Below, piece by piece: positions 37,092-61,811 of a DNA stretch of 64,000 nucleotides; within the stretch, counting starts at the first letter, position 1; each line of letters starts with the position of its first letter. This DNA is from Larkinella soli (GTDB lineage Bacteria > Bacteroidota > Bacteroidia > Cytophagales > Spirosomataceae). The notes under the pieces were generated by a model. That model saw only the letters and a list, made by a program, of their open reading frames with translations, made no database searches and was not told the origin of the DNA. The position numbers and the translations under genes are program-made. The stretch covers positions 620,001 to 684,000 of the forward strand of contig NZ_QTJY01000002.1 of assembly GCF_003703975.1 (NCBI RefSeq), written 5' to 3'.

Positions 37092-39866
37092 GTGGCAGAC
37101 ATTTCCTTTTTTGAATCCGCGAGGACCCGCCTTCGGGACCAGGCTTATGCCAACTTCGTCGCGCATCGCTCGGAGATCGAGCGCGTGGGATACGGTATTC
37201 AGCAAAACCGCAGCGGGCAGCTGCCGCTCAGCCACATCACCAACGACATCGACCGGCTGTCGAAACGCATCGCCCGCGAGGGCATGCAGGTGGAAAAAGC
37301 CCTGGAGCGCATTAACAACGTGCCCAATTTTCAGGATGTATCCGTCATCCGGAAAATCCTGCGGAACTCGTCCAGCGTGTGCCGGATCGTCATTCAGACG
37401 TCCTTCGGAAACAGCGGTTACGGAACCGGTTTTCTGATCAGTCCGCAGGTGCTGCTGACGAACCACCACGTGCTGCCGGACGTCGAAACCGCCCTGCGCT
37501 CGGAGGCCCAGTTCGGCTATGAACTGGATGAAAACGGCCATATTCAGTCGCCGATTTCCTTCCGGCTCCGGCCCGACCGGTTCTTCCTGACCTCGCCGTA
37601 TGAAACGCATCCGGAGGTGCCCTACAGCGGCCGGGACTTCACGATGGTGGCCGTCGAGCCGACGGGAACCGAAGGGGCGTCCCTGGACCAGTTCGGTTAT
37701 ATCCGGATGGACAGCTCCCTCGGCAAGATCATCGAAGGGGAAAACTGCGTCGTTATCCAGCACCCCAAAGGAGATTATAAAAAGCTGGTTCTCCGGGACA
37801 TCCGACTGATTACGCTGACCGAGAACTTCCTCATTTACGAGTCCGACACGCTGCCCGGCTCGTCCGGGAGCGCCGTGCTGGGCTTGGGTACGGGCGTCAT
37901 CGTGGCGCTCCACCACAGCTCCATCCCGCGCAAGGACGCGGCCGGCAACTGGCTCCGGAAAGACGGCAGCCCCGTGCAGCCCGACGACCCCGACGAGCTG
38001 ATCGACTGGATCGGCAACGAGGGCGTCCGGGTGAGCTGCATCGTGGAAGCCTTCAATAAACTGCCCGTTCCGGACGCCATGCAGCCCTACCGCCGTCAAA
38101 TCATCGAAGCCCAAACTTCCTCCCTTCCGACTATGAACGCTCCCATCTCCCATACCGCTCCCATCCCTCCGGCGGCCCTCCCGGCCGAATCGACCCTGAC
38201 CGCCCACACGGGCACCGAATCGACCGCCGGTCTCCAGTATTTCGAGGTGGTCCTGACCAGCCAGCCCACGCTGCTCGACGACTGGGAACAGAAAGCCGCC
38301 CTGCTGGTCGAAGGACTGGTCGAGGATCACCCCCTGATCCCGCATTCGTTCGATCCGTACATCCGCCGGATGCGGTACGTCTCCGTCCGCACCGCCCGCA
38401 ACCCCTGGGAACAGGCTGCTTTCATGGAAAGCCTGCCGCACATCGAGAGCTGCAAACCGGACCTGGAGATGCTCACCGACATCGGCCTGACCGACTCCGA
38501 CGCGCCCACCCGGCAGGGTCCGCAGGAATCGGAACTGATTTACAATGAGGGCACGGCGGCCTGGAACGAGGAAAAATTCCTGAAGGACTTCGGGCAGGCC
38601 GGCTGGGTGCAGAAAGCCAAAAAAGTACGGGCCGACTACTACCGCTGGTGGAACTGGCTGGCCGTCAACTGCCCCGCCGATGGGAACCGGACCGGAAAAG
38701 ACTGGGACGCCATCCGGCAGAATCTGGCGAGTCTGCGCTTCGTGCAGCTCGACACCGGCTATTCCTCCCATTCCAAGGTCTTTTCGGGCGTCGACACCGA
38801 TAAGGATTTCGACTTCATCGACTCGGATGCCGACGCCCGCGACCTGATGGACCGGCTGCTGCTGAAACACCCCGGCCACGGCACCCGCACCGGCAGCCTG
38901 GCCGTGGGCGGGACGCTGGCCGCCGACCCCCGGCGGCTCGACGGCAACGGCGGCCTGCTCAACTTTGGAGGTCAGGTCCCCGCCCGGCTCATCCCCTACC
39001 GGATCTCCAAATCGGTCATTTTGCTGGGGCGCGGCAAACAGCTGGTGGATGCGGCCGGATACGCCATTCGCAGCCAGGCCGACGTGATGTTCATGTGCAT
39101 GGGCACCTATCCACGGGCGATGTTTGCGGCCATTGCCCGGGAAGCCTACGAAAACGGCGTCATCTGGGTGTGTGCCGCCGGCAACGAGGTGGAAGTGGTG
39201 GTGGCCCCGGCCGTCTATCCCGGCACCATCGCCGTGGCCGCGGTCAATCCCGCCGACCAGCCCTGGAAAGGCAGCAGCAACGGGCCGATGGTGGACATTG
39301 CGGCCCCGGGTGAAAGCGTGTATGTGCCCTTCATCGACAAGCAGGGCAACGAAATCATGGTCTACGGCGACGGCACCAGCTATGCCACCCCGCACGTGGC
39401 CTCGGCCGCCATGCTCTGGAAAGCCCGGCACCTCGACGCTCTGAGCCAATACGACTTTCCCTGGCAGATCGTCGAAGCCTTCCGCTTCTGCCTGAAGCAG
39501 TCGGCCCGGACTCCGGACGGCTGGCGGACCGATCGGTATGGCGCCGGTATTCTGGACGTGGAGAAGCTGCTGACCCTGCCGCTGCCGAAGAAAGCCGAGC
39601 TGAAACACGCCTATGCGGCTTCCGACCCCGAACCCTCCAAAGACCTCGGCGTGGTGGAAGCCGTCCATTTCGTCTGGAACATCCTGCGGAGAAAAGCCAA
39701 ACGGGGGCCGACGGAGAGCTTCCCCGCTTCCTTTTCCCTGACGCCCCGGGGGCAGCTGGCCCTTCAGGCATTTACGGCCGGCACGCAGGCCCGGGCTTAC
39801 GAAGCCGCCGGTTTCGGCGACCAGATCGGCCAGGAGGCCCTGCTCCGGGAATATTTCAATCAGTAG
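37092..39866 (+). CDS. Trypsin-like and subtilisin-like double serine protease
   Basis: A 924-residue fusion starting at GTG 37092, with no signal peptide. Residues about 1-95 are helical (LSHITNDIDRLSKRI, LERINNVPNFQDVSVIRKIL). Residues 95-325 form a chymotrypsin-fold (S1) domain with His126 in TNHHVL, Asp182 in GRDFTMVAV and Ser258 in LPGSSGSAV. A linker (about 340-380) and a small domain (about 380-465, possibly an inhibitor-like propeptide) follow. Residues about 545-800 form a subtilase (S8) with Asp554, His596 in HPGHGTRTG, oxyanion Asn698 in AAGNEV and Ser763 in GTSYATPHVASAA. Both triads are complete. The last about 120 residues are helical. The dipeptidase gene follows 24 bp later. 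Confidence 0.86.
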   Translation: MADISFFESARTRLRDQAYANFVAHRSEIERVGYGIQQNRSGQLPLSHITNDIDRLSKRIAREGMQVEKALERINNVPNFQDVSVIRKILRNSSSVCRIVIQTSFGNSGYGTGFLISPQVLLTNHHVLPDVETALRSEAQFGYELDENGHIQSPISFRLRPDRFFLTSPYETHPEVPYSGRDFTMVAVEPTGTEGASLDQFGYIRMDSSLGKIIEGENCVVIQHPKGDYKKLVLRDIRLITLTENFLIYESDTLPGSSGSAVLGLGTGVIVALHHSSIPRKDAAGNWLRKDGSPVQPDDPDELIDWIGNEGVRVSCIVEAFNKLPVPDAMQPYRRQIIEAQTSSLPTMNAPISHTAPIPPAALPAESTLTAHTGTESTAGLQYFEVVLTSQPTLLDDWEQKAALLVEGLVEDHPLIPHSFDPYIRRMRYVSVRTARNPWEQAAFMESLPHIESCKPDLEMLTDIGLTDSDAPTRQGPQESELIYNEGTAAWNEEKFLKDFGQAGWVQKAKKVRADYYRWWNWLAVNCPADGNRTGKDWDAIRQNLASLRFVQLDTGYSSHSKVFSGVDTDKDFDFIDSDADARDLMDRLLLKHPGHGTRTGSLAVGGTLAADPRRLDGNGGLLNFGGQVPARLIPYRISKSVILLGRGKQLVDAAGYAIRSQADVMFMCMGTYPRAMFAAIAREAYENGVIWVCAAGNEVEVVVAPAVYPGTIAVAAVNPADQPWKGSSNGPMVDIAAPGESVYVPFIDKQGNEIMVYGDGTSYATPHVASAAMLWKARHLDALSQYDFPWQIVEAFRFCLKQSARTPDGWRTDRYGAGILDVEKLLTLPLPKKAELKHAYAASDPEPSKDLGVVEAVHFVWNILRRKAKRGPTESFPASFSLTPRGQLALQAFTAGTQARAYEAAGFGDQIGQEALLREYFNQ

Positions 39867-39890
39867 TCCGAAACTCTTTCTCCTACGACC

Positions 39891-41600
39891 ATGTCGACGG
39901 CTCCCCAATATTTCGACTTTCATTTTCATCCCGCCTTCAAGCAGTTCATCTGCCAGTTCGAACCTGCCTATCCCTCCACCCGGGACGTTCGTTCGCTGTT
40001 GAAACCGATCGACCTGAAAAACCCGATCACCGATTTTCTGGAGGAGGAGTTTCTGCATATTCTGGAAAGCCAGGCCTGTCTGGAACAACTCAGCGCGGGC
40101 AAACTGATGCTGGGCATCGCCAATGTGGCTGCCATCGAGCGGATGTTTGCCGAAAAGGAGGGCCTGTTTGGGAAGGTGCTCAACTCGCAGTTTCTGACCA
40201 AACCGGTCGATCAGACTTACTTTAGTAAAATCCGGGAGGGCAAAATCTCTTATTATCAGCTGTTTATCCGGGAACTGAACCACTATAAACGACTGCGGGA
40301 CGGCGGACAGATCACGATTTTGAGCCGGAAAAATCCCGGTATGCTGGACGCGCCCGGTGCGCTGACCCACGTCGCCATGGCGATGGAAGGGGGCCACAGC
40401 CTCTGCCGGACCTTGATCGGCCAGCCGGGAAAACCCGACGAGATGACGGTCAGCGGCTCGCCGGAAGATGAGCCGATTGCAAAAGATTTCCAGGACCATC
40501 CGGTGTTGAGCCCGGCCCTGAGCCTCGAACACCTGCAGACGGCCATGTGGGCCGAGAACATGGACCTGTTCTCGATGGTGCTCACCCATCTGTCGCACAT
40601 CCCGGAGCAGCTGCTGGCGACCCATGCCTACGGGATGAAGATGCTGAAGGACGAGGCCATCTTCCCCATTGGCGACGGCCTGACGAATGCCGGTAAACAG
40701 GTGATCGACAAGGCCTACTCGATTCAGGTCGGCGGGGCCGACGCGCCCGTGCTGATCGACATCAAGCACATGGGACTGAAATCCCGGCTGGACTTTTACG
40801 CCCATCGGAGGCTGAAAGGCCACACCCTGCCCATCATCGCCAGCCACATGGGCGTCTCGGGCTATTCGCTCGACGAATGGAAAGGCGCGCTGGAAGAAGC
40901 TCACATCGTGCGGCTGAAGGCCAGCAACACACCCGTGGTCAAAATCACCACCAGCCGGCGGGTGGCCGGCGACTGGGGCGCCACCAACAAAACCTTCACC
41001 TTCAACCCCTGGACGATCAACCTCCTGGACGAGGACATCGAAGAGGTGCTGAACAGCAACGGGCTGATCGGCATCAGTCTGGACGTGCGCATCCTGGGCT
41101 GGCAGAACGTGCTCGGCAAGGGCGAAAAAGAGGAATTCATGTCGGCGGAGGAGTTCCGGTTTCTGTTTCCGGAGCAGTTCAAAAAGCTGAGTTCGGAACC
41201 CATGGCGGCCCCCGAATCCTTCCTGCTGCCGACGAAGGAGGAACGCCACCCGCTGTCGCTCTGCTTCAACCTGCTGCACGTGGTTTCGGCCGGCCGCATC
41301 CGAACCGACAAAGACCCCTGGAAACACATCACGATCGGCAGCGATTTCGATGGGCTGATCAACCCCCTGATCAACTGCCGCGACGCCAGCCGGATGGGCA
41401 ACCTCGAAAATCTGCTGTTCCGCTGGCTGCCGGTGGCCGAGGAACGTTACCGCCGGGAAAACGGCGGAGGCCGGCTGCTGAAGGTGACGCCCCAGGGCGA
41501 AGTGGACGAGGATAATTTACGGCGTCTGATCCGGGATGTGCTGTACGAAAACGGAAAGGCTTTTCTGACCAACTGGCTGAAAGGCAGCCCGGGACGATGA
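39891..41600 (+). CDS. Cytoplasmic M19 (renal dipeptidase-like) metallopeptidase
   Basis: A 569-residue protein, longer than typical M19 dipeptidases (about 350-400). Metal-ligand motifs of the amidohydrolase/M19 fold are recognisable: DFHFHP at residues 9-14, MEGGHS with Glu166, a central DIKHMG, then IIASHMGVSGY, and IGSDFDGL near the C-terminus. M19 enzymes split dipeptides and some beta-lactams using two zinc ions. The protein lacks a signal peptide, unlike many M19 dipeptidases, so it should be cytoplasmic. Its gene follows the double protease by 24 bp, implying one transcript and a shared proteolytic task. Confidence 0.78.
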   Translation: MSTAPQYFDFHFHPAFKQFICQFEPAYPSTRDVRSLLKPIDLKNPITDFLEEEFLHILESQACLEQLSAGKLMLGIANVAAIERMFAEKEGLFGKVLNSQFLTKPVDQTYFSKIREGKISYYQLFIRELNHYKRLRDGGQITILSRKNPGMLDAPGALTHVAMAMEGGHSLCRTLIGQPGKPDEMTVSGSPEDEPIAKDFQDHPVLSPALSLEHLQTAMWAENMDLFSMVLTHLSHIPEQLLATHAYGMKMLKDEAIFPIGDGLTNAGKQVIDKAYSIQVGGADAPVLIDIKHMGLKSRLDFYAHRRLKGHTLPIIASHMGVSGYSLDEWKGALEEAHIVRLKASNTPVVKITTSRRVAGDWGATNKTFTFNPWTINLLDEDIEEVLNSNGLIGISLDVRILGWQNVLGKGEKEEFMSAEEFRFLFPEQFKKLSSEPMAAPESFLLPTKEERHPLSLCFNLLHVVSAGRIRTDKDPWKHITIGSDFDGLINPLINCRDASRMGNLENLLFRWLPVAEERYRRENGGGRLLKVTPQGEVDEDNLRRLIRDVLYENGKAFLTNWLKGSPGR

Positions 41601-41625
41601 GCCCGGGCGCCGTCCCGGCCGCGGC

Positions 41626-42582
41626 TTACCGAATGAGGATGTCGTCGCACTGGTCCTGGCCCTGCACGCACAGCCAGTGCGGGTGGTTGCCTTCCTCGAA
41701 TTCCACGTCGAGTTCGCGGCCGGTTTCGTGGAAAAGAACGCGCGTATGCAGCCGGGGCGAATATACCCTGGCATTCCCGAGAAAGCACGCCCACCAGCTG
41801 AACGAGGAATTGGCCCGGAACACCGCTTTGGCGAACATCAGCTTCAGGAAGTCGGGAAACCAGGAGAAAAACACCTCCGGAACCGGCGTGGCCCCGACCG
41901 GGTAGGACCAGTGATCGGGGTAACGGCGTGAGGGGATTCCGAGGGAACCGGTTTTGTCGTCCGTTACCCATTCGATGGTTTTGGGGTCGTAGCCGTACTT
42001 CCGGAACGCCTTTTCGTAGGACGCCCGGGAGAGCACCGAGTACCCCTGGTTCGTATGGTTTTTGGCGTCGGCGATGTCGTCGCGCCGGAGATGGGCGACC
42101 GTGTACGTCCCCTGCCGGTCTTCCAGCCGGCGGTACAGGTCCGATTGTCGTACCTGCTCCGAAAACCGGAAATAGGTTTCCCGCATCCGCTCGGCCGAGT
42201 ACTTCCCGAAGATGTGGGGGTGGAAACAGCACAGGCTGTCGATGCAGACGTTCACCCGGCCGTATTCGTCCGGATTGTCCGGATTCATGTATTCGATCTG
42301 ATCGCCGGTCCGCTGGTTGAACCGGTGGACGGCCGCCATCCGGGCGTCGATGTGGTCGAAGGGCGGAATGCTCTGGTTGAGATACAGGCGCAGTTCGTCG
42401 TCGTCGATGATCCGGTGAACGCGGTTTTCAAACAGCACATCACCCTCCCAGTGGGAAGGCAGCCAGACCTCCAGACCGAACGTTTCGGCATAGTGCCGGA
42501 GAAAGGCGTAGGTAAACATCCGGTTTCCAAAACGCCCGTTCCAGTGCATCAGTACAATTTTATTTCGATTTGCCGCCGGCAT
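41626..42582 (-). CDS. GT11-like glycosyltransferase (alpha-1,2-fucosyltransferase family)
   Basis: A 318-residue protein with the GT11 start motif Gly-Arg-Phe-Gly-Asn-Arg-Met-Phe at residues 16-23 (G-x-F/L-G-N-x-M-F), the HLRRDD motif (the HxRRxD nucleotide-sugar motif of GT11/GT23-type enzymes) and SSFSWWACFLG (the SSFSWW motif near the C-terminus). GT11 enzymes transfer L-fucose from GDP-fucose to galactose in glycans or O-antigens; the donor here is inferred. It is the only minus-strand gene within the cluster, divergent from the PG-binding gene. A short GC hairpin without a T-run lies at its convergent end with the dipeptidase gene. Confidence 0.8.
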   Translation of the reverse strand: MPAANRNKIVLMHWNGRFGNRMFTYAFLRHYAETFGLEVWLPSHWEGDVLFENRVHRIIDDDELRLYLNQSIPPFDHIDARMAAVHRFNQRTGDQIEYMNPDNPDEYGRVNVCIDSLCCFHPHIFGKYSAERMRETYFRFSEQVRQSDLYRRLEDRQGTYTVAHLRRDDIADAKNHTNQGYSVLSRASYEKAFRKYGYDPKTIEWVTDDKTGSLGIPSRRYPDHWSYPVGATPVPEVFFSWFPDFLKLMFAKAVFRANSSFSWWACFLGNARVYSPRLHTRVLFHETGRELDVEFEEGNHPHWLCVQGQDQCDDILIR

Positions 42583-42812
42583 ATATCTGAAGATTTAAAT
42601 GTTTGCAAGCTTCATATAAATGCAACATCAAGTAAGTTATTCCACTGAATAAGCCGACTACCGATAAATAAAAACCATAGTGGATTAACAAGACCCATTC
42701 ACAAACTTAGCCCACAGCTAAGGCGGACTAACCTGAATCGGGTAATTGATTTTACCCCTCCGTTTTTCGGATTGGAAGGAAACAATTGTCGAACGTCATT
42801 CAACCAAATTGT

Positions 42813-43817
42813 ATGACTATCTCAGGAGCGCTACTCAACGTTTTATGCCGCCGTTATCGATTTGTTATCGACGAATCGGTGCCGGTTTTATTTGCCGTTC
42901 GGAGCGCTCTTCCGGTGGAGATAATGCGGGGAAATTTCACGGTTTCCGGCACGTTTAAATCCGCTCATCCGGTCCGCCCGGTTCGTCTGAATTATCAAAC
43001 CGTTCGGTGTACGGTCGGCATCTGGATTCCGTCGTCCGGGGAGGTTGCGCTTTTTCCAGGCAGCACGGTTCCCTCCGCTGCCTACGTCTACCGCCACCCC
43101 GATTCCCGGGCGACCTTCAACATTCTGAAGCCGGGTCTGTACCGACTGAAACGCGGCCTTCACCCCCGCAGCGAACGGGGCTTCCAGCGGCACCCGGCTT
43201 TTCTGATGGACGGTTACGGACTCGTCGAAGTGCCCGGCCTGGTCAAAGCCGGCCGAACCGCCCGCTTCGACTTTCGGAAAGTACAGTATAAAGTGATGCT
43301 GCCCGGCGACAACCTCCATGCCGCCCGCACGGAGCCGGAAGCGGGTCAGGACTCCCGGCAAAATTGCCTCGCGTCGCTGCGGCTTCCCTACAGCAGTTCG
43401 GGCTGCATCACCGTCACCGGCCAGCCGGCTCCCTACGTCCGCAACCCCACCGCCGACTCGGGCTGGAACTGCTGGATGCACTTTTCGGACCTGCTCGACC
43501 GCCCGGCTTTCCGGTCCGGGCAGTATGACCTGCTGCTTTTCGACGATTCGGACCTGGCCGGGGAACACCCGTCGGCCTCCGGGGGTAGCCTTCGGTACGG
43601 CTCCACGGGGCCGGACGTCGCCCGGGTTCAGAAGATCCTGGGTTCCGTCCTGAACGGGAAGACCGGCCGGCCCTTTTACGAAGGACCCGCCGACGGGTCC
43701 TTCACGGGAGCCACCGCATCCGCTTACCTTCATTTTCAGGAGACATTCACCCGCGGCCCCCTGACCGGCCAGGTCGACCTGCGCCCGTTTCTGAACGCAA
43801 CCAAACACTTCCGATAA
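42813..43817 (+). CDS. Peptidoglycan-binding-domain protein with SxGC motif
   Basis: About 334 residues from ATG 42813 (a TTG at 42786 is possible). There is no signal peptide. The central part (about residues 160-230) has NLH with His169, then SSSGCITVTG with Cys198 and a SGWNCWMHF segment. This resembles the H...SxGC layout of L,D-transpeptidase-like and related phage/Bacteroidota cell-wall proteins. The C-terminal 75 residues form a PG_binding_1 helical domain (RYGSTGPDVARVQKILG, DGSFTGATASAYLHFQ). The N-terminal 130 residues are beta-rich and unrecognised. It is the first gene of an eight-gene tight operon, 19 bp before the first large paralogue. Function: inferred cell-wall or glycan binding. 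Confidence 0.6.
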   Translation: MTISGALLNVLCRRYRFVIDESVPVLFAVRSALPVEIMRGNFTVSGTFKSAHPVRPVRLNYQTVRCTVGIWIPSSGEVALFPGSTVPSAAYVYRHPDSRATFNILKPGLYRLKRGLHPRSERGFQRHPAFLMDGYGLVEVPGLVKAGRTARFDFRKVQYKVMLPGDNLHAARTEPEAGQDSRQNCLASLRLPYSSSGCITVTGQPAPYVRNPTADSGWNCWMHFSDLLDRPAFRSGQYDLLLFDDSDLAGEHPSASGGSLRYGSTGPDVARVQKILGSVLNGKTGRPFYEGPADGSFTGATASAYLHFQETFTRGPLTGQVDLRPFLNATKHFR

Positions 43818-43836
43818 CCCTTAACCAGGCCACCCC

Positions 43837-46530: not shown

Positions 46531-46563
46531 TTTTTATATCCAACCAATTAAATCCTTACCATT

Positions 46564-49053: not shown

Positions 49054-49075
49054 TCACTCCAACCGTCCAATCGCC

Positions 49076-51298
49076 ATGGCAGGCATCGAAAACACCAAAA
49101 TCCAGCCGCAGCTCTACATGCTGTCCACCGCAGCGATGTCCACCCGGATTTTCGTCGTTCAGCACAATCAGGTGAACGAGGTTCCGTCGGACGCCAACCG
49201 GGTCTACGTCGTCAACGGGCAGAAATTCGGGCAGCCCCGGTTCCGGATCAAAAAACGAAAAGGCGGCAGCGTCATCCCGGACTCCGACGCCTTCTGGTTC
49301 GTGAAGGACGCCACCACCGGTAAAACCACCCTGCACTGCATCGTCGAAGCCTTCCGGCCCGAGCCCGACGTGTTCCCGTTCACGATCCGGAACCAGCAGA
49401 TCGAGGTGCAGTTTCAGGCCGGCGGCAAGACCGTCAAACAGCCGATGCAGATTACGGCCTCGCCCCTGATCAACGACATCAACATCCTTCAGGATCTGGT
49501 GGCCGAAACGGAAATCACGCCCGAAACCGTCCTGGACCTGGTCCGCGACCTGACCAAGTCGAACCTGACCGTCACCTTCCAGCTGACGATCCGGTCGGAG
49601 TTGTGGTTTCAGGTGATGACTTCCGGACCGGCGGAACAGGCCCGCCCCCGGGTCGGCATCGGGGCCAGTGATATGACGGACCTGACGCAACTGAAAGTGA
49701 GGCACATGTCGGCCGCCGGCCGGCCGTTCCTGGCCCAGGCCCAGATCCTCGCCCGGACCGACCATATCATTGCCGGCGACCGCGTCAGGGCGAGGCCCTG
49801 GGTCCGCGACCACCGGACGGGAAGCGGACCCATCGTCCGTGACCACCGCAATCAGACGCCCGGCCCCCGGCCCGAACCGCAGCCCCAGCCCGGCCCGCCG
49901 GCGAAGATCGACCTGATGCACGTGGAGATGGTGCAGTATACCAAAAAAGACCAGTCGGTTTTCGGGGAACTGCTGGCCGACACGGAAGTCAACGGCTTCG
50001 AGTGGACGTCGGTCAACCTCATCAAGGAGAACGGGCTGCAATACCCCATCTACTACAAACCGACGGCCCAGCCCGACGTCTTTTTCTTTCTGCCGCAGGT
50101 CTTCCGGATCAAGGCGAAGGAAAACAACGGAGAGCCGAAGATTTCCATCACGATGGTGGCCGGCGACGATCCCAACGATACGGCCAAATACCGCATCAAC
50201 ATCGGTATCACCCTGTTGCCGTATTACAATCCGAAGGCCAAGAAAGACCTCTACCGGACGCTCAACACGGCCACGACCGGTCTGGTCAAGTTCTGTGAAC
50301 TGAGCCTCGGCGGCTACAAATCCGTCCGGTTCGAACTGCGGGACGCCTTCGCCGGGGAAAACGCCGTGTTCCGGGGAAAAATCAAGGAAGCCATCGAGAC
50401 CATCGACCCCATCACGGGCTTTACCCTGTCGGTGGAATGTTCGCTCGAATCCTTCGATTTCTTCAAGCGCGAACTGTCGGACGGCGAGTGGGTCGTGGGC
50501 GACGCCGTGTTCGAACTGGTCACGGACGGCGACAATCCGGACCAGACCAAGTCGGTACGGATTCCGGTCGAGCTGGACATCCGGAAGCTGGTCGGGATTC
50601 CGGTCGGCATCGAAACCGTCGACTCCGGCCAGCCGGACGTGCCCATCACCGGCTTCCGGATCCACAACACGAACACCTTTCCGATCGTCGTCGGCGGGGC
50701 CGAGCTGACGCTGCTCTCCAAAATCGGAAGCACCGTTTACGATGCCGATTACGACATCGGGGTGCAGCGGGCCTGGCCGATCGAGATTCCCGAGCAGGGG
50801 AGCCAGGAAGTGCTGCTGCGGCAGGAAGACATCATGGACCTCACCGAACGGTTCTGGACCGAACTGTCCTGTGAACCGTTCGGGCTGTCGCTCAACACTA
50901 CTCCCGAACAGGTGCTGTCGAAGGTGATCGACTATGCCACCGGCGACCCGCAGATCTGGCAGCTGGAGGTCAACTGTCCGCTCTTCGAGCGCTGGAACGA
51001 ACTGGACGACGCCACCCTGGCGCCGTTCCGGCAGGTTCACCAGGTGATCGTGGAGATCAAAAACGAAGCCGGGGAGGTGTCCGCCGTTCAGCTGAGCAAG
51101 ACCAAGCCGGTCGATTCGATCAAGATGGCGCGCAGCATCAAACAGATCCTGAACTCGCAGCAGCTGTCCAGTCGCAAGTACATGTACCGGGTCGGCACCG
51201 TCTACGTCCTCGACCCCACGTTCTGGACCGACTGGACCGAGCCGGAAACCACCTCGGGCAACTTCCTGATCATCCGACCTCAGAAACTGACGGTTTAA
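49076..51298 (+). CDS. Large beta-rich cluster protein C (no shared N-domain)
   Basis: A 740-residue protein, no signal peptide, family unrecognised. Unlike A, B, D, E and F it lacks the FYY...PSL-x-G N-terminal domain; residues 1-230 are a different beta-rich part. An Arg/Pro/Gln-rich low-complexity stretch (about 235-275, with RVRARPWVRDHRTG and PGPRPEPQPQPGPP) divides it. The second half is beta-rich, including SVECSLESFDFFKREL, and ends NFLIIRPQKLTV. A FLI- or LLI-type ending recurs in B and D. It sits in the middle of the operon, 22 bp after B and 20 bp before D, so it is probably a component of the same complex. Confidence 0.6.
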   Translation: MAGIENTKIQPQLYMLSTAAMSTRIFVVQHNQVNEVPSDANRVYVVNGQKFGQPRFRIKKRKGGSVIPDSDAFWFVKDATTGKTTLHCIVEAFRPEPDVFPFTIRNQQIEVQFQAGGKTVKQPMQITASPLINDINILQDLVAETEITPETVLDLVRDLTKSNLTVTFQLTIRSELWFQVMTSGPAEQARPRVGIGASDMTDLTQLKVRHMSAAGRPFLAQAQILARTDHIIAGDRVRARPWVRDHRTGSGPIVRDHRNQTPGPRPEPQPQPGPPAKIDLMHVEMVQYTKKDQSVFGELLADTEVNGFEWTSVNLIKENGLQYPIYYKPTAQPDVFFFLPQVFRIKAKENNGEPKISITMVAGDDPNDTAKYRINIGITLLPYYNPKAKKDLYRTLNTATTGLVKFCELSLGGYKSVRFELRDAFAGENAVFRGKIKEAIETIDPITGFTLSVECSLESFDFFKRELSDGEWVVGDAVFELVTDGDNPDQTKSVRIPVELDIRKLVGIPVGIETVDSGQPDVPITGFRIHNTNTFPIVVGGAELTLLSKIGSTVYDADYDIGVQRAWPIEIPEQGSQEVLLRQEDIMDLTERFWTELSCEPFGLSLNTTPEQVLSKVIDYATGDPQIWQLEVNCPLFERWNELDDATLAPFRQVHQVIVEIKNEAGEVSAVQLSKTKPVDSIKMARSIKQILNSQQLSSRKYMYRVGTVYVLDPTFWTDWTEPETTSGNFLIIRPQKLTV

Positions 51299-51318
51299 CC
51301 TAACAAGAACCCTTTCCC

Positions 51319-53601
51319 ATGATTACCATTCCGAGTGTATTGAATCATAAAAACGTGGTCGTCTTCCCCGACGATGAGGACTGCAACCTGTTCTACGCCC
51401 TGAAAACCAGTCCGGAAATCCGGGTCGAGAACGGCCAGCCCATCTTCAGCGGCCTCTTCTGGACCGACCGCGCCGACGGCTCCTCCGACAGCGTGGCCGG
51501 TCTGGCGGGCGGCTGGATCAACTTCGACGCGCACCTCGGCGTCAGCCAGGCCGTGCTGGACGAGATCGCCGGCAAGCTGAAAAGCGCCCAGGTGCAGGAA
51601 GACCGCCGGCGAATCCTGATCAAGAAGGAGAGGGAACGGCTGGGCCTCATCGCCAAAGCCCGGGGTGAAACCACCATCCCGGACCCCGACGTGCCGCCCG
51701 TCCGGGAAATCCGGTTCGGGGCCGTCAGCTTCACGGAAGGCACCGTCACGCTGCTCGAAGAAAAAGCCGGCGACCTCATTCCCTGGTCGTCGGCGGGCGG
51801 CCCGGCCAGCCTCATCGGCGACAACAATGCGGCTTTTGCCCTGCGGCTCAGCCCCACCGGCGCAGCCATCTGGTACAAGGCCCTGAAAGACGGCATCAAG
51901 GCCATCAGCATCCGGTATGACCTCAAATTCCAGATGCGGCTGCCCAGCCTCGAAATCCGGGCCTGGGCCGGCTCCACGCAGGAGAGCGAGATCAACCGGA
52001 AGGTCGACCGGGTGTGGCGCAATACCGATCAGGGCTGCTCCGACGCCGACGTGGAGCGCATCAACGTCTCGGAGGTGACCGAGAAGCTGGTGGAAGAAGG
52101 ACTGATGAACATCGAAGTCCGGAAGGGTTCCTCGGAAATCTCCGACGAATACGTCAGCCAGCTCCGGAACATGGCCATGAAGCTGATCGAGGAGAAGGTG
52201 CGGGAAATCATCAAAAGCCGCATTCACGGCATGACCGAGGACGAACGGAAAAACTCCATGATCAAGGTGATGAAGGAGGAGGTCCGGTCGTTCGTCGAGC
52301 TGCGCTTCACGCAGGAGGACGTGGTCGAGTGGCAGATCGCCCCCCAGGGAACGATCATGAATTTTCTGGAAGGGATCTCCGAAAGCCGCAAACAGCACAT
52401 CACCAAACTCGTCGACCTGAGCGTGCAGGAAGTGGAAACCATCACCCTGAGAACGTCCGTCGACGCGCCCTGGGACGAAGCGCCCTTCGTCAATGCCGTG
52501 AAAGTCAACGTCGAATACCCGGCTGCGGGCCAGCGCAACTCCGTGCTGTTCCAGAAAGGCACGGCCCCCGACGTCTGGCACTTCCGCCGGCCCAAAAAAG
52601 ACGACGGCGTCGCCAAATATACCACGGAGGTCTTTTTCAGGGGCATCTCGCAGCCGGTGGTCCTGCCGCCCGAGTCGACCAATTCCGAAACCATCAACGT
52701 CAACATCGGGAAGCTGGGGCTGATCGACGCCGTCTTCAAACCGCACCCCATCCTGAGCTCGCTGACGGGCGCCAACGCCGTCACGGCCGTTCAGGTCGAC
52801 GTCTCCTACAAAGAGGAAGGCGAACCGGGTCATTTCACGGATACCCTTCTTCTGAAGCTCGACAAGCCGGAGGGCGAACGCCTGACCCGCATCCTGGGCC
52901 GGGTCATCGACGCCCCGCTGGTGTACCGGGCCACCTACTTCTTCTCCGGCGGCAATACGCTCCAGATGGAGGAAAAGAAATACTACGTCACCGAGAGCAA
53001 CCTCGTGAGCATCCTGATTGCCAGCCCCTACCAGGACACGATGGACCTGACGATCGAACTGCCGCAGCCGCCCGACAAGTCGGTGAAGAAAGTCATCGTC
53101 GAGGTCCGGTACGAGGATGCGGCCAACCAGTTCTCCAGCGTCGGCAAGGCTGAGCTGTCGGCCGACGACGACTGGGACCCGGCCCTGATCAAGATCGTCA
53201 TGGTCGACAAAAAACAGTCGAAGTTCAAATACCAGTACCGGATCGTTTCCGACGATTCGATCGCGCGGAGTGCCCTGATCGACGGCGACGGCGAAGGGAC
53301 GCTGATCCTGCCCATCTTCAAGGTCAACATCAACGCCGGGCAGCTTAAACTGGGCAGCGTCTACTCGAACGCCCTGCTGACGCTTCAGTATACCAACGGC
53401 ACGGCCAAATCCAGCCGGGAGATTTTCCTGGACCCGGCCTCGGCCACCGGGGTGATCAGCTGGTACATTCCCCGCACGAGCGAAACCGACACTTCGTACA
53501 GTTATCAGCTGGCGCTGATTAAGGAAGACGGCAGTTCGGTGGAGACTTCGGGGACCAGCCAGGGCAGCTTCCTGATTCTGAAAGCGCCCGCCGTTTCCTG
53601 A
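51319..53601 (+). CDS. Large beta-rich cluster protein D
   Basis: A 760-residue protein, no signal peptide. The shared N-terminal domain (1-300) shows VVVFPDDEDCNLFYAL, GGWINFDAHLGVS, then ASLIGDNNAAFALRLS and IRYDLKFQMRLPSLEI. A long charged helical segment (about 245-330, EKLVEEGLMNIEVRK to the region after HGMTEDERK) is unusually strong here. About four beta repeats follow (with VNAVKVNVEY, VTAVQVDVSY, VKKVIVEVRYED each followed by a Y-x-Y strand). The protein ends SFLILKAPAVS. The function is unknown; it is a paralogue of A, B, E and F. Confidence 0.66.
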   Translation: MITIPSVLNHKNVVVFPDDEDCNLFYALKTSPEIRVENGQPIFSGLFWTDRADGSSDSVAGLAGGWINFDAHLGVSQAVLDEIAGKLKSAQVQEDRRRILIKKERERLGLIAKARGETTIPDPDVPPVREIRFGAVSFTEGTVTLLEEKAGDLIPWSSAGGPASLIGDNNAAFALRLSPTGAAIWYKALKDGIKAISIRYDLKFQMRLPSLEIRAWAGSTQESEINRKVDRVWRNTDQGCSDADVERINVSEVTEKLVEEGLMNIEVRKGSSEISDEYVSQLRNMAMKLIEEKVREIIKSRIHGMTEDERKNSMIKVMKEEVRSFVELRFTQEDVVEWQIAPQGTIMNFLEGISESRKQHITKLVDLSVQEVETITLRTSVDAPWDEAPFVNAVKVNVEYPAAGQRNSVLFQKGTAPDVWHFRRPKKDDGVAKYTTEVFFRGISQPVVLPPESTNSETINVNIGKLGLIDAVFKPHPILSSLTGANAVTAVQVDVSYKEEGEPGHFTDTLLLKLDKPEGERLTRILGRVIDAPLVYRATYFFSGGNTLQMEEKKYYVTESNLVSILIASPYQDTMDLTIELPQPPDKSVKKVIVEVRYEDAANQFSSVGKAELSADDDWDPALIKIVMVDKKQSKFKYQYRIVSDDSIARSALIDGDGEGTLILPIFKVNINAGQLKLGSVYSNALLTLQYTNGTAKSSREIFLDPASATGVISWYIPRTSETDTSYSYQLALIKEDGSSVETSGTSQGSFLILKAPAVS

Positions 53602-53638
53602 GCCGCCGGATGTTCTACTTTGACGCCACCTTACCGCC

Positions 53639-55879
53639 ATGCTGAGCTATAAGCCGCCTTTTCTGGAGTCGGGCCGCCTGGTCCTGTTCCGGGACGATAC
53701 CGACTCCGAGACGTTCTACTACGTCTGCCTCCAGCCGTCCATCGTGCGGAATGCGGCCGGGGAGCCGAACCTGGAAGCCTACGCCATCCTGCCCGAATCC
53801 GGCATCGGAACCGAGACCGACAGCATCATGGAAGCCGGGCTGATGCTGGACGTCAGCCTGTCCGTCTCCCAGAAGGAACTGGAAGCGGCCGAAAAGGCCA
53901 TCAAGGAGAAACTGGGCGCCAAACCCAGACTCCTGGCCCCGGCCCCGATTCATTCGGGGAAAGTGTACCTGATCATCGCGGCCGCCGGCGACGAACCCGA
54001 TCCGAAGAAGTGGTTTGTCACCTCCGAGGTCACCCCTACTATTTTCGGCGCCAACACGGCCTCGCTGGTGGTGCGGGCCGTCGGCAACGACGCCAAACTG
54101 CTGATAGCCGCCCTGGACTCCGACACGATTGCCGCCGGCGTTCACTATGAACTGAAAATGCTCGGGATCGCGCCGGTTTTCAAGGCGTCCATGAACGTCC
54201 ACTGGAGCAAGGTCTACCATCATTTCGAGAAGTTCGACAAGACCAACTTCATCTTCTTCACCGACGAGATCACGGCCGCCGTCGATCAGCTGAAGGAGTC
54301 GAGCGCCATCGAGATCGAGGTGCAGGAACTGGACCCCGACATCAAGAGCGAGGCCATGAAAAGCCTCCTCAACGAGCTGAAATCGGAGGTCGTCAAGCGG
54401 CTTTTTCAGCCGGCCTCCTCCCCGCTGAGCGCGTCCGAGAAGTGGGAGGACCGGCTGGCGGGCGGGGTCAGCCGTGTGCTGTCGTCCATTGCGCCGGGGG
54501 TGCATCACATCCGCCGGACCATCGACGAATCGCAGCTCAGCACCACGACGATCAACCTGTCGCAGCGCAACGTCAAGACTTACCCGCTCAATCCGCAGGC
54601 GCTGCTGCCCACGCTGATCCGGGCCGCCGGCGGCATCAAAGACCGCATCCGCTGGATCAAACTCGACGAAATTCCGTTCATCGACCAGAAGGTGGAAGTG
54701 CGGCTGTCGGCCGATACCTTCAAGAATTCGAACATCAAGTCGGTCGTGATCGAATGCCGGGTGGTGGATGCGGAGACGGAAGAGATCGTGGTGGAAAACA
54801 GCATCGTGTTCGACACCGACGACACGCTCCGCAACCACCTGAACTTCACCCGGCAGAAAGACCGGAAATACCGCTACGACTACCGGACGACCCTGTTCAT
54901 GACGACCGATTCCCTGCGGCTGCCCGGCAAACTCGAACTGGACTGGCTTTCGGAAAACAGCCCCTACATCTACTTCAATTCGGCGGAATACTTCGAAGCC
55001 CGCGAACTGACCGTCGGCCTGGACGACACCAGCCTGTTCGGCCATGCTCACCTGATCGAGGCCCAACTGAACGTGCTGGACAAAAACGACCTGACGCCGG
55101 TGCTGAAACGGACGTTCCTGTTCCGGTCCGACGACAAGGCGCAGAAGGTGCTGTCCATCGTCACCAACAAAACCATCCCGCTCCGCTTCGACTTGAACCT
55201 GACCTATTTCCTGGCCGAAGCCAAAGAACACAAGGCGTCCTATACCGACCTCAGCTCGAATTTCTTCTTCATTCCGAACCCGTTCGAGAACAAATGGTCG
55301 GTCGATCTGCTCTGCACGGCCGACTGGACGAAAACCGGGAAGGTGATTCTGGAAGCGCGCATCACGGACGCCGAACGCGAAGACCCGCTGCTGCTGAAGT
55401 TCGACTTCAAAAGCGACTCGACCGAAAAAACGCTGGGCGTCGCCACCAGCCTCCGGACGCCCCGCGAAGCCTTCGAATACCGGGTGACGGTTCTGACGGC
55501 CGACGGGGCCGTGATTCAGGGGCCGTGGCAGCCGCACCAGGGACCGGTGCTGGTGGTGTCCGACCGGATCAGTGCCGAGCGGATCATCCGGGCCACGCTC
55601 ACCCATTCGCCGGACTTCGACCGCAAATCCATCAAGCAGGTGAGCGTCGAGTTCGTCTACCATGACCCCGCCAACGGCATTCATCTCGAAAGCGAGCGGC
55701 TGCCGTTCCGCCGGATCGGCGATACCGTGGAGTTCCGCCATCCGATGCCGGATTTCAACCGCAAGGGCTTTCAGTACCGAAGCCGGGTCAAAGGACTGGG
55801 CGGAGAAGCGTACAAATCGGACTGGTTCGACGAAACCAGAGACAAAATCGAAATTACCATCCCGGATAATCTCTGGTAA
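53639..55879 (+). CDS. Large beta-rich cluster protein E
   Basis: A 746-residue protein, no signal peptide. The shared N-terminal domain (1-250) shows LVLFRDDTDSETFYYV, GLMLDVSLSVSQKELE, then TPTIFGANTASLVV and GVHYELKMLGIAPVFKASMNV. A charged helical segment (about 220-260) leads into a middle beta region (LSTTTINLSQRNVKTYPLNP), then repeats with SVVIECRVVDAE, KYRYDYRTTLF, VILEARITDAE and AFEYRVTVL. It is 37 bp after D and 14 bp before F. The repeats are fewer or more diverged than in B and D. The function is unknown. Confidence 0.65.
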   Translation: MLSYKPPFLESGRLVLFRDDTDSETFYYVCLQPSIVRNAAGEPNLEAYAILPESGIGTETDSIMEAGLMLDVSLSVSQKELEAAEKAIKEKLGAKPRLLAPAPIHSGKVYLIIAAAGDEPDPKKWFVTSEVTPTIFGANTASLVVRAVGNDAKLLIAALDSDTIAAGVHYELKMLGIAPVFKASMNVHWSKVYHHFEKFDKTNFIFFTDEITAAVDQLKESSAIEIEVQELDPDIKSEAMKSLLNELKSEVVKRLFQPASSPLSASEKWEDRLAGGVSRVLSSIAPGVHHIRRTIDESQLSTTTINLSQRNVKTYPLNPQALLPTLIRAAGGIKDRIRWIKLDEIPFIDQKVEVRLSADTFKNSNIKSVVIECRVVDAETEEIVVENSIVFDTDDTLRNHLNFTRQKDRKYRYDYRTTLFMTTDSLRLPGKLELDWLSENSPYIYFNSAEYFEARELTVGLDDTSLFGHAHLIEAQLNVLDKNDLTPVLKRTFLFRSDDKAQKVLSIVTNKTIPLRFDLNLTYFLAEAKEHKASYTDLSSNFFFIPNPFENKWSVDLLCTADWTKTGKVILEARITDAEREDPLLLKFDFKSDSTEKTLGVATSLRTPREAFEYRVTVLTADGAVIQGPWQPHQGPVLVVSDRISAERIIRATLTHSPDFDRKSIKQVSVEFVYHDPANGIHLESERLPFRRIGDTVEFRHPMPDFNRKGFQYRSRVKGLGGEAYKSDWFDETRDKIEITIPDNLW

Positions 55880-55893
55880 ATGAACGCTCGACC

Positions 55894-58194
55894 ATGCTGG
55901 ACCTGGCAAAACCCTTAGGCATTCACGAAGGACTGATCTTTTACGGCGATCACGAGCTGACCGACTTGGTCTATTACTTCCCCGACGAGGTCAGTCTGGC
56001 GCCCCAGCGGGCCCCGGCCGGCGGTCCGTCGGACTTTTACGAGCTGTTCTTTCAGATGTTTTCGGAAGGCGACATCGTGGAGGGCGATCTCGACGACCTG
56101 CGCAAAACGGCGGGGTCCATCCTGTCGCTGGGCGTCCAGTGTACCGTCTCGCCCGACCGGCTGGAGAAGGCCGTCGAAAAGCTGAAGGGCACCGGCATCT
56201 TCCCGGATTCGCTGCGGGCCACAGTGCCGCCCTGGAAAGACGGCACCGTCAACCTGATGGCCCTCGATGCCATCACCGGCCGCAACGAATCGATGGGGCA
56301 GGACGCCTTCGTGAAGAGCATCATCGGATCACTGAAGCCCTCGCTGATGTCCAACGACCTGAAAAGCATCTTCAACCTCCGGCTCGACCGCCGGGGCACG
56401 GCCCTGATCCTGGGGGCGCTGGAAGGCGATACGGGCAACGTAGCCGGGGTGCTGTACGACCTGAAATACACCGCCATCCGGCCCGCCCTCGACCTCCGCA
56501 TCTGGGCCAACCTCGGCCGGTGTTACGACAGCGTCTCCCACCAGCTCGGCATCAAGGCCGAGTTTACCTACGGCGTCAAGTTTTCCCTCGGGGCCGAGCT
56601 GAACTGGCTCACCAAAAAGATGGAGGAGGACGGCGACCTGAAGATCGAGGTGCTCAGCCAGGCCGAAGACCCCGAAACGAAGAGGATGATGGACGAAATG
56701 GTCAAGGACTTCAAGGAGAGCATTCTCCGCGAAATGTTCCGGCCGTATGTCAACCCCGACTCCGTCAACATTCCGAACCTGACGAGCCTGGTGCCGGTGG
56801 TGGGCGTCTCCTACAAATTCACGAAGGAACGGATCACGCACGACAAGGTCATCGAGGCCGATTACCGGGAGCGTTCGGCGGTGGTCCGGACGCACAACCC
56901 GCAGTCGCACCTGTGGGTGCTGGGCCGGCAGATTGCCGCCAACCGGGATAAATACATCCAGCGGGTGGTCTTCAGCGACCTCTGGCGCGAACAGTCGCTC
57001 TCCATTGAGCTGGTCCACGACTTTACGAAACCGGAGGCCGACCTGCTCAGCGCCGAGGTGGTGATCTGGCGGGCGAAGGAGGGCCTCCGGGCCGATGCGC
57101 CCGCCGGGCGGTTCGCCGTCCCGGAAACCGCCGACCCGCTGAAAAGCCTGACCTTCCACAAAGACAACAACCGCAGGACGTCCATCGCCTGGCTGTACGA
57201 AAAAGGCGAGCCGGTGGGGTATTTTTACCAGATCCGGTTTCTGTACCGGGGTCAGACCGCGGGCATCAGCAGCCCGACCGAAATCCTGACCACCCCCCAG
57301 TTCAGCACCAACGAGAACCTGGTCATCTTCCCGGATACCTACACTTTCATCAAACGGATCGAGGTGCGCGACGGCAATATCAACCTGGCGGAGTTCCGGG
57401 GAGTCGACGTGACGCTGCGGCTGAAGGATGCCGCCGACACCGTGCTCGATACGGAGGTCATCACGCTCAATCCGACGCTGAAAAATGCCGCCTGGACGGT
57501 GCGGGGCCGGGATAAAACCGCCCTGTTCATCGAAGCCGCCCGCGAATATCACTTTGCCGACGAGCGGCCGTCGGTCCGGACCGAGCCGGTGTATCTCCAG
57601 GACGACGAACTGATCGTGAACAAACCGTTCCAGCGGTCGCAGTTCTCGCTGATTCCGGTGGTGGCCGGGCGGAACGAGGCCATCAAGGAAATTCTGCTGG
57701 AAATCCGGGTCGAATCGCCGGACCTGGAGGAGCCCGTCAAAACCTTGTTCCGGCTGAAAGCCCCGGGCTTCGACAGCCCGGACCTCGGCATCAAACTGCA
57801 ATCCGCGCAGGACAAACTCTTTTTCAAGGCCGGCGCCATCACCACCGACGGCACCGTGATCGACATCGACGAGGGGCCGGTGCTGACCAACGCCTTAGTG
57901 ATCGACCTGAACCGGACGAACAACAACGAGGTGCGGTTCATCTGGCGGGGCCGGTCGCCGGAAGCGCTGGGACTCAAGAGCCTGCGGGTGGAACTGCGGG
58001 CGGTGGGAGCGGTCCCGGAAGAACTGGAACCGATCGAATTCCGGGGCAATCTGGTGCCGCAGCCGGTGGTCAGGATTTTTCCGAAAACCCAGAAGGTCGA
58101 GTGGCGGGCCTTCAAACGCTTCGAGGACGGCACGAAGGAAAAGAGCGAATTCAACGCCATCCTGGCCCGGGAAATCGTCATCGAGGCCGAGTAG
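55894..58194 (+). CDS. Large beta-rich cluster protein F
   Basis: A 766-residue protein, no signal peptide. The shared N-terminal domain (1-320) shows GLIFYGDHELTDLVYYF, LSLGVQCTVSPDRLEKAVEKL, then KPSLMSNDLKSIFNLRLD and GVLYDLKYTAIRPALDL. It is the most divergent copy: the Gly after PSL-x is replaced, as in PSLMSND. A middle region of about 330-380 (HLWVLGRQIAANRDKYIQRVVFSDL) is specific to it. Later beta repeats include FYQIRFLYRG, GVDVTLRLKDAA and EILLEIRVES. The last protein gene follows 24 bp later. The function is unknown. Confidence 0.65.
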   Translation: MLDLAKPLGIHEGLIFYGDHELTDLVYYFPDEVSLAPQRAPAGGPSDFYELFFQMFSEGDIVEGDLDDLRKTAGSILSLGVQCTVSPDRLEKAVEKLKGTGIFPDSLRATVPPWKDGTVNLMALDAITGRNESMGQDAFVKSIIGSLKPSLMSNDLKSIFNLRLDRRGTALILGALEGDTGNVAGVLYDLKYTAIRPALDLRIWANLGRCYDSVSHQLGIKAEFTYGVKFSLGAELNWLTKKMEEDGDLKIEVLSQAEDPETKRMMDEMVKDFKESILREMFRPYVNPDSVNIPNLTSLVPVVGVSYKFTKERITHDKVIEADYRERSAVVRTHNPQSHLWVLGRQIAANRDKYIQRVVFSDLWREQSLSIELVHDFTKPEADLLSAEVVIWRAKEGLRADAPAGRFAVPETADPLKSLTFHKDNNRRTSIAWLYEKGEPVGYFYQIRFLYRGQTAGISSPTEILTTPQFSTNENLVIFPDTYTFIKRIEVRDGNINLAEFRGVDVTLRLKDAADTVLDTEVITLNPTLKNAAWTVRGRDKTALFIEAAREYHFADERPSVRTEPVYLQDDELIVNKPFQRSQFSLIPVVAGRNEAIKEILLEIRVESPDLEEPVKTLFRLKAPGFDSPDLGIKLQSAQDKLFFKAGAITTDGTVIDIDEGPVLTNALVIDLNRTNNNEVRFIWRGRSPEALGLKSLRVELRAVGAVPEELEPIEFRGNLVPQPVVRIFPKTQKVEWRAFKRFEDGTKEKSEFNAILAREIVIEAE

Positions 58195-58218
58195 CCCACA
58201 GGTATTTTTCAGAGAACC

Positions 58219-59307
58219 ATGAAAACATACATTATCATCGTCGCCGGATACGACTACGCCAACGGGGGCGTCAACTTCGCCTACATCGCCGACAAACGGC
58301 GGCTGTACCTCCAGCAGCAGAACCCGTCCTGGGCCAACGACCCCGACGTGGTCTTCGTCCGCTTCGACGTGAAGGCCGGCAAAATTGAGCGGAACACCTC
58401 CAACGGTACCTCCCGCTCCTGGAGCCCGGATTCGGGCAGCTTCACGGCCATCAACCGCTCCACCCATTACCAGAGCGAGCATTTCATTTCCGCCGACACG
58501 AACGTGCTGTCGATCACCGACGCCTACCGGTATGTGAGCAACCTCGGGGCGACCGAGCCCGGCACCGTCCGGGAGTTCAGCGTCATGGGCCACGGCTGGT
58601 ACGGCGGGCCGGTACTGGTCAACTCCTTCGAGCGCAGCGAGTTTGCCGTCGGCGGCAGCCGCTACCCCGAGCGCGACCCCCGCGACAAGGACGGCCGCAC
58701 GAAAGATTTTGCCCGCGAAAACATGAGCGACACCGACTGGGGCCATTTTCAGAACGCCTTCGCTTCCGACGGCTACTGCTGGGTCTGGGGCTGCGTCTTT
58801 ACGCGGGCCTACTACAATACACTGTACAAGATCATGCAGACGCCCGCCTTCAAAAGCAAGGCCTTCGGCACCCATCAGGACAGCGACGCCTTCACCATCA
58901 CCGTCAACGACTCCTTCGTCACCAGCTATTACGACGCAGACCGGACGTTTTTTCCGCGCGACAATAACGAACGCACCTTCACCCGTACCCTGCTGGAACT
59001 GAAGACCTTCCTGAAGCGCGGGATGCGCCGGGCCTACCCGGGCAAGTTCGCGGGCGACACGGGCATCGAATGCCGGGCGGCTTTTCTCGGCACCTACTCG
59101 GATTACGAACGGGCCTATCCCGGACACAACCCCACCCATGCCGTCATGATCGTTCCCCGGCACGTCGGTGCCTACGGCACGGATTTTACCAAAACCATCA
59201 ACTTCTTCAAGACCTATCTGGGTATGCCCGAAGACCCCGAAAACCGGGGCTACGGCGTCTATACGAATGCCATGGTGAACCAGTGGTGGAGCGAAACCAC
59301 CGTGTAG
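58219..59307 (+). CDS. Cluster-terminal protein with caspase-like His/Cys layout
   Basis: A 362-residue soluble protein, no signal peptide, family unrecognised. An N-terminal hydrophobic strand TYIIIVAGYDYANGG is followed by VVFVRFDVKAGKIERN. A third strand ends in FSVMGHGWYGGPVLVNS with His125-Gly126. A later strand reads YCWVWGCVFTRAYYNTLY with Cys192. Strand-His-Gly then strand-Cys is the arrangement of clan CD (caspase/CHAT-like) peptidases; I infer such a fold with low to moderate confidence. The C-terminal 130 residues are mixed and include EAERTF-like acidic helices and a GTDF strand. It is last of the operon and ends 26 bp before a convergent receptor gene. Confidence 0.5.
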   Translation: MKTYIIIVAGYDYANGGVNFAYIADKRRLYLQQQNPSWANDPDVVFVRFDVKAGKIERNTSNGTSRSWSPDSGSFTAINRSTHYQSEHFISADTNVLSITDAYRYVSNLGATEPGTVREFSVMGHGWYGGPVLVNSFERSEFAVGGSRYPERDPRDKDGRTKDFARENMSDTDWGHFQNAFASDGYCWVWGCVFTRAYYNTLYKIMQTPAFKSKAFGTHQDSDAFTITVNDSFVTSYYDADRTFFPRDNNERTFTRTLLELKTFLKRGMRRAYPGKFAGDTGIECRAAFLGTYSDYERAYPGHNPTHAVMIVPRHVGAYGTDFTKTINFFKTYLGMPEDPENRGYGVYTNAMVNQWWSETTV

Positions 59308-61784: not shown

Positions 61785-61811
61785 AATCAGGTTGATGGTC
61801 AGTGGAAAGGA

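Follow-up and report, generated by a model that had tools for sequence, protein, structure and literature searches.

What do the large proteins encoded at positions 37092 to 59307 of the Larkinella soli DNA analyzed here (a stretch of 64,000 nucleotides, the window) form, and do all of the genes in this run belong to one system? An earlier note on this DNA had described ten plus-strand genes in two tight blocks and had treated them as a single set. The ten open reading frames, their coordinates, and the intergenic gaps of 14 to 37 bp within each block were reproduced, but the blocks do not adjoin: a minus-strand gene at 41626-42582, absent from the earlier note, separates them and is part of the second unit. 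That unit is PG-A-B-C-D-E-F-Casp (42786-59307) together with the divergent GT-like gene (41626-42582). It is a module of mostly paralogous large proteins with conserved gene order, transfer between lineages, and companion genes that change among relatives. Our tentative reading is a scaffold or sensor assembly that moves horizontally and controls a hydrolase that can be exchanged, probably as a conflict system, with an undescribed core; we favor this reading while giving it somewhat less than an even chance. The G+C content of the cluster (0.56 to 0.63) is similar to that of the remainder of the window, in which no tRNA was found. The features are as follows.

37092-39866, plus strand: P1, trypsin-like and subtilisin (S8) double protease (Pfam Trypsin_2, E = 2.2e-12; Peptidase_S8, E = 1e-24)
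39891-41600, plus strand: P2, M19 dipeptidase-like protein (Pfam M19, E = 1.6e-06)
41626-42582, minus strand: GT-like gene, possibly for a family 11 glycosyltransferase, transcribed divergently from the PG-A-F operon
42786-43817, plus strand: PG, with an SSSGC motif and a weak C-terminal peptidoglycan-binding-like domain (residues ~265 to 325)
43837-46530, plus strand: A, family member by the family profile, with a long T/P/S-rich tandem-repeat linker
46564-49053, plus strand: B, family member
49076-51298, plus strand: C, second family, with a hypervariable middle that carries VRDHR repeats
51319-53601, plus strand: D, family member of the D-type clade common to alphaproteobacterial and caspase-bearing clusters
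53639-55879, plus strand: E, family member, modeled as an N-terminal domain and ~4 Ig/FN3-like sandwiches
55894-58194, plus strand: F, family member
58219-59307, plus strand: Casp, putative Cys-His hydrolase (HGW...WGC) with a suspected caspase fold

A, B, D, E, and F share a profile and are paralogues of one another, and C stands apart, which agrees with the five paralogues and unrelated sixth protein of the earlier note. Each family member is laid out as a common N-terminal domain followed by about four predicted Ig/FN3-like sandwiches; in A, T/P/S-rich tandem repeats at approximately 44765-45119 of the window make up the linker. A similar linker, rich in G/T/P, occurs in the F-type proteins of two other members of the genus, G016 and G100. 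Sharing is widest over the N-terminal ~270 residues: a scan of 19 clusters or fragments, which missed D and E of the window, gave 73 matches at E <= 1e-5. An 885-residue protein in G016 (L013 11831-14488) and G100 (L015/L016) carries a degenerate family N-terminal domain near its C terminus. The large proteins had gone unrecognized when read from sequence, and searches of Pfam, NCBIfam, PHROGs, PADLOC, and PDB sequences with A-F likewise gave nothing credible. All PHROGs matches had E > 0.01 and none was to a phage-tail or secretion family, so that a phage tail or known secretion apparatus, the identification that had been named as fatal to a new system, was set aside for A-F. A leader-bearing family member of G1030 matched FtsH_ext at E = 0.0046, under the cut-off.

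The full-length model of E had a mean predicted local distance difference test score (pLDDT) of 72 and a predicted template-modeling score (pTM) of 0.38. Its residues 346 to 745 resemble Ig/FN3-like and similar sandwiches at a generic level, and a fold search with the full-length model returned generic sandwich matches only. The best single-domain matches in the C-terminal half reached Z scores of 6 to 7 (root mean square deviation [rmsd] of 2.6 to 3.9 over 77 to 90 residues); because all fell below Z = 8, they support only the general sandwich arrangement. The N-terminal domain modeled alone (pLDDT of 77, pTM of 0.63) gave no fold match above background (Foldseek best E = 0.011; VIA best Z = 4.6 over 78 residues with an rmsd of 3.4), and a pLDDT of only 77 leaves room for a known fold.

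A tree was built from the 73 N-terminal domains, with two short matches omitted and D and E of the window added. A and B each formed one clade. The D-type clade (97/87) united genes of the window, Rhodocytophaga, Lewinella, G016, G100, and G257 with two Pararhizobium genes, and the E-type clade (96/95) united the same groups with one Pararhizobium gene, while the F-type grouping was weak (83/62). Additional clades contained the members with leader peptides from six genomes; in two of these clades, each genome contributed exactly one member. On this tree, the split between D and E types predates the divergence of the versions in Bacteroidota and Alphaproteobacteria, which is what a hetero-oligomer would show. 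By this branching pattern the subunits are old and distinct, and the tree fits the earlier suggestion, made from the sequence, that repeat proteins and hydrolases assemble into a complex.

Gene order, whose comparison among relatives the earlier note had proposed, is kept in Rhodocytophaga aerolata and partly in other genomes. R. aerolata has all nine genes in the order of the window, GT-like (minus strand), PG, A, B, C, D, E, F, and Casp, with identities of 69% for GT-like, 45% for PG, 74% for A, 79% for B, 59% for C, 76% for D, 74% for E, and 69% for F; orthologues that are 45 to 79% identical establish that the coding of the second block is real. The order D-E-F recurs in G016, G100, and G257 and, with two genes between E and F, in Pararhizobium, and in a Lewinella metagenome-assembled genome (MAG) A-B-C-D (33 to 50% identity) share one short contig, while a second contig carries F- and E-type genes. 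G016 and G100 carry a diverged version, the D and E proteins of G016 being 23 to 24% identical to those of the window. Phosphoglycerate kinase, the one marker compared, is 87 to 90% identical within the genus and 73% identical to that of Rhodocytophaga. The unit of the window is thus near that of Rhodocytophaga and far from the same-genus version, unlike phosphoglycerate kinase, which argues that the window copy most likely moved horizontally.

The family is sparsely distributed. In counts that all include the window's own genome, it was found in 3/9 genomes of the genus, 5/390 of the order (two weak), and 6/395 of the phylum (two weak), as well as in 8/298 genomes of the order of the Lewinella MAG (one weak). 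A search of 150 genomes of the taxonomic family with protein D alone found four, including G128, a weak match across stop codons at a receptor-like gene on the opposite strand. One-protein queries matched 3 of 72,556 plasmid records and none of 50,697 phage records, and no family member was found in viral contigs by six peptide patterns of one protein.

The first block has a different history. P1 combines the Trypsin_2 and Peptidase_S8 domains in one polypeptide, with the motifs TNHHV, GSSGSA, HGTRTG, and GTSYATP, and P2 matches M19 weakly but above the cut-off (27.9 bits versus 26; 29.1 bits for an orthologue), as expected of the double serine protease and M19-type dipeptidase proposed earlier. 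P2 adjoins P1 in all six places inspected, namely, the window, G016, G100, G058, G091, and a Hymenobacter plasmid. In G016 and G100 the pair is 67 to 70% identical to that of the window and lies at an unrelated locus with no family gene nearby. G058 and G091, both without the Ig-repeat family, have P1 (40 to 42% identical) followed by a P2 homologue (31%), and no P1 is linked to the Ig-repeat unit in Rhodocytophaga. Because relatives carry the pair elsewhere, away from family genes, P1-P2 is a separate module that is inherited separately from the A-F unit. We therefore rejected, on the synteny of P1-P2, the reading of all ten genes, double protease and dipeptidase included, as one system. Such a system is highly improbable even though the blocks are adjacent in the window and the genus members that bear Ig-repeat genes also hold the closest P1 (at least 40% identity in 3/3 members with these genes versus 2/6 without them, a difference with a probability of ~0.12 by chance). 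On the Hymenobacter plasmid (L129 1-15861), P1 (40.5%) and P2 (29%) are near an annotated DNA/RNA nonspecific endonuclease and two annotated amidases; this stretch is likely a conflict locus that unites a nuclease, a double protease, and an M19-like protein. P1 matched 74 plasmid records; among the 10 matches listed, 9 are 30 to 37% identical to the N-terminal part of P1, 4 of them annotated as nonspecific endonucleases.

The remaining genes of the second unit are less uniform. C had no BLAST match to the other A-F proteins and no known relatives in the profile libraries or PDB sequences searched, and two of its orthologues gave very weak matches to A-F profiles. Its versions across subtypes are linked via the alphaproteobacterial ones (hhalign, 93% and 97%), the window and G016 groups giving 4% when compared directly. 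Residues ~180 to 260 are hypervariable (17% identity to Rhodocytophaga in one 60-residue block), and a (V/I)RDHR motif repeated there, twice in the window and three times in Rhodocytophaga, could serve for cleavage or docking. The 707/717-residue neighbor in G521/G436 was considered as a C protein, and comparison did not demonstrate homology. PG had been described as a peptidoglycan-binding-domain protein with an SxGC motif. The motif is present as SSSGC; the domain had no Pfam match, PG_binding_1 included, and is weakly supported by hits on the same residues to PHROGs (0.003), NCBIfam SleB (0.088), and a PDB SleB domain (0.38), with hhalign giving 14% against two true peptidoglycan-binding domains. 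An L,D-transpeptidase reading of SSSGC had no profile support. The GT-like protein matched Glyco_transf_11 at E = 0.11, below the cut-off, and has an HLRRDD motif that may tie it to family 11 glycosyltransferases. Its presence at the same position in Rhodocytophaga indicates that it travels with the A-F unit in opposite orientation.

Casp, the last gene of the unit, had been called caspase-like, and a caspase fold is suspected. It had no Pfam match, Peptidase_C14 included, and profile-profile comparison with true caspases by hhalign gave a probability of 0.1%, with only the His strand aligned. All four aligned rows share His125 and Cys192. Among 395 genomes of the phylum, homologues were found only in the window's own, and three plasmid records had one; there were none in phages and none in viral contigs searched by six peptide patterns. 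On an Ensifer adhaerens plasmid (L047 8939-24701), the homologue directly follows DrmA-DrmB, with SIR2-like and LmuB-like genes downstream, and this stretch is possibly a DISARM variant with a new component. The homologue on a Tsukamurella plasmid (L046 12100-16077) adjoins a 957-residue protein without an assigned family. The Rhodocytophaga copy (L011 16885-17972) is in two overlapping frames (72% and 75%), which reflects a broken gene or a sequencing error. Beyond Casp, the minus strand of the window (59334-63935) holds two adjoining genes for outer-membrane receptor-like proteins that resemble each other and apparently arose by tandem duplication.

The companions of the family vary among relatives. 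Two C14 caspase genes directly follow F in G016, G100, and G257 and make up 2/3 of the C14 genes of each genome, and G1127 has a single C14 gene, a fusion with PG_binding_1, two positions past a family member (C14 was assigned by Pfam in G016, G257, and G1127 and from the genome-wide C14 tally in G100). Companions elsewhere are a papain and a PG_binding_1-muramidase in G436, an Amidase_2-like protein just under the cut-off in G374, and an M43 peptidase in G1040. Inspection by eye picked out one companion each in G061, G1051, G1030, and G1076 with an HExxH zinc-protease motif; the three that were scanned (G061, G1051, and G1076) had no Pfam match. The Paracoccus cluster, on two near-identical plasmids that represent one lineage, includes EAD1-trypsin, EAD1, an AAA/STAND-like ATPase, PLD, tyrosinase, and trypsin. 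NlpC-like or papain-like companions read by eye in G061/G1051 and Pararhizobium had no Pfam match and were discarded. ClpB, which lies beside the G016/G100 cluster, was dropped as an unfoldase partner, as the stretches read around the G257 cluster lack it.

Relatives also differ in leader peptides. None of the ten window proteins has an obvious signal peptide on reading, as had been noted before, and hydrophobicity agrees for A, B, and F. Family members of G061, G1030, G1040, G1051, G1076, G1102, and G374 begin with a hydrophobic leader, with best 12-residue Kyte-Doolittle means of 1.8 to 3.2; two G1076 rows are lower (0.93 and 1.38), their starts probably having been called too far upstream. 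The other 12 clusters or fragments, window included, gave 0.06 to 1.56, on a measure that is simpler than a signal-peptide predictor and with some starts in the leaderless set uncertain.

The anatomy of the unit, its transfer, and its distinct subunits are well supported; from these observations we infer complex formation, gating of a hydrolase, and a role in defense. A, B, D, E, and F would be distinct subunits of a cytoplasmic hetero-oligomer to which C adds a further subunit, the shared N-terminal domain serving as the assembly part and the stalk of Ig/FN3-like domains as the binding or sensing part. Two kinds of partner would be held or gated by the assembly: a hydrolase, which is Casp in the window and a true caspase or another peptidase in other clusters, and a wall-acting protein, which is PG in the window and a muramidase or amidase in other clusters. 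A trigger would release the peptidase, and the cell would be killed or arrested or the products of an invader destroyed, as in other protease-based bacterial immune systems but with a core of its own. The conflict or defense function suggested in the earlier note gains support from EAD1-trypsin, caspases, and a Casp homologue beside DISARM genes, and it remains a conditional reading, to which the window itself contributes less than the companions found in relatives. Several points weigh against it. The unit of the window has no recognized peptidase, and Casp is rare in the phylum. PADLOC gave no convincing match for A-F or Casp (D versus PDC-M34B, 0.0019), nor for the Ensifer homologue. The companion associations are raw neighbor counts. 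C14 genes are at the cluster in 0/4 cases in the window's genome (where they are on another contig), 0/1 in Rhodocytophaga, and 0/2 in G061, and just 1 of 22 is near the cluster in G1030, a few kilobases past the last family gene. No hydrolase was seen among six neighbors read by eye in G1102, and the papain and muramidase of G436 are absent from the stretch read in its sister G521. Finally, leaders in six clusters and in G374 misfit an internal alarm.

The chief rival is an assembled envelope or exported machine in which an Ig-repeat fiber, coat, or carrier presents or delivers hydrolases outside the cell for nutrition, predation, or antagonism. Multimember clusters with leader peptides in six genomes, the HExxH companions in five leader-bearing genomes (one each, picked by eye), wall-acting companions in other clusters, and Ig/FN3 stalks typical of surface proteins are all in its favor. 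However, no leader is seen in the window set, measured for A, B, and F, or in 11 other clusters or fragments, so that cytoplasmic versions would have to exit by lysis or another route; EAD1/STAND partners belong, in the portions of those sources available, to intracellular-type systems (PMC7159879, PMC8195603); and PHROGs gave no phage-tail or secretion-family match. We consider an exported machine rather unlikely, though a serious alternative. A housekeeping or developmental complex for peptidoglycan or protein turnover, with no conflict role, would account for the recurrent pairing with peptidases and wall enzymes, but it is improbable given the very patchy presence of the unit, its carriage on plasmids in alphaproteobacteria, and its transfer across families.

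A broader reading joins both locations: a new class of machine consisting of coevolving paralogues, which number five in the window and as many as eight in one related cluster, with a new N-terminal assembly domain, an Ig-repeat stalk, and, in the cytoplasmic kind, the C subunit, which would act as a scaffold for pluggable peptidases and wall-lytic enzymes. It would be a cytoplasmic conflict module in Bacteroidota and Alphaproteobacteria with an exported branch in other Bacteroidota. We regard this as a possibility to be held more loosely than the conflict assembly itself; if true, one architecture serves inside and outside the cell. Should the conflict assembly hold, Ig-repeat paralogue sets would give protease-based conflict systems of two phyla a scaffold not described before, one that accompanies caspases, papain, trypsin, or zinc proteases plus wall hydrolases. 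This would extend the bacterial side of the comparison with animal caspase/Ig-like immune signaling and turn dozens of large family-less proteins into a testable complex. Even if defense is not the function, distinct subunits that recur as a set indicate a machine that has yet to be studied.

No description of this gene combination was found in the literature searched, with subscription papers and preprints outside its scope, and the nearest published systems, cited here from the portions available, each share part of it. The canu (CanABC) antiphage loci combine a caspase-family protease and Ig-like folds in variable loci with genes of undescribed function (PMC12799240). Ig-like folds are predicted here too, and some relatives of the window unit carry true C14 caspases; the window unit differs in its several paralogous large Ig-repeat proteins and in a terminal Casp without a C14 match. 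With no C14 match and no MBL-type nuclease in the ten window proteins or the GT-like gene, the window is not a canu locus. GAP1-N2 GTPase-centric systems also place an FNIII-repeat protein beside effectors (PMC7159879), but the window proteins have no GTPase match and their repeat proteins are a paralogue set with a common N-terminal domain. EAD systems resemble the Paracoccus cluster, where EAD1-trypsin, EAD1, and a STAND-like ATPase adjoin the Ig-repeat family; none of the ten window proteins matched an EAD domain, and the available portions of the account of EAD and NucA-trypsin systems do not mention the family (PMC7159879). In NucA-trypsin systems (System 3), S8 domains, EAD1, and wall-attacking domains have been described (PMC7159879). 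No NucA or endonuclease domain is found in P1 or the A-F unit, but P1 pairs trypsin and S8 in one polypeptide as published, and its Hymenobacter homologue is near a nonspecific endonuclease and amidases. The Hymenobacter neighbors and the plasmid matches of P1 fit the published NucA-trypsin systems (PMC7159879).

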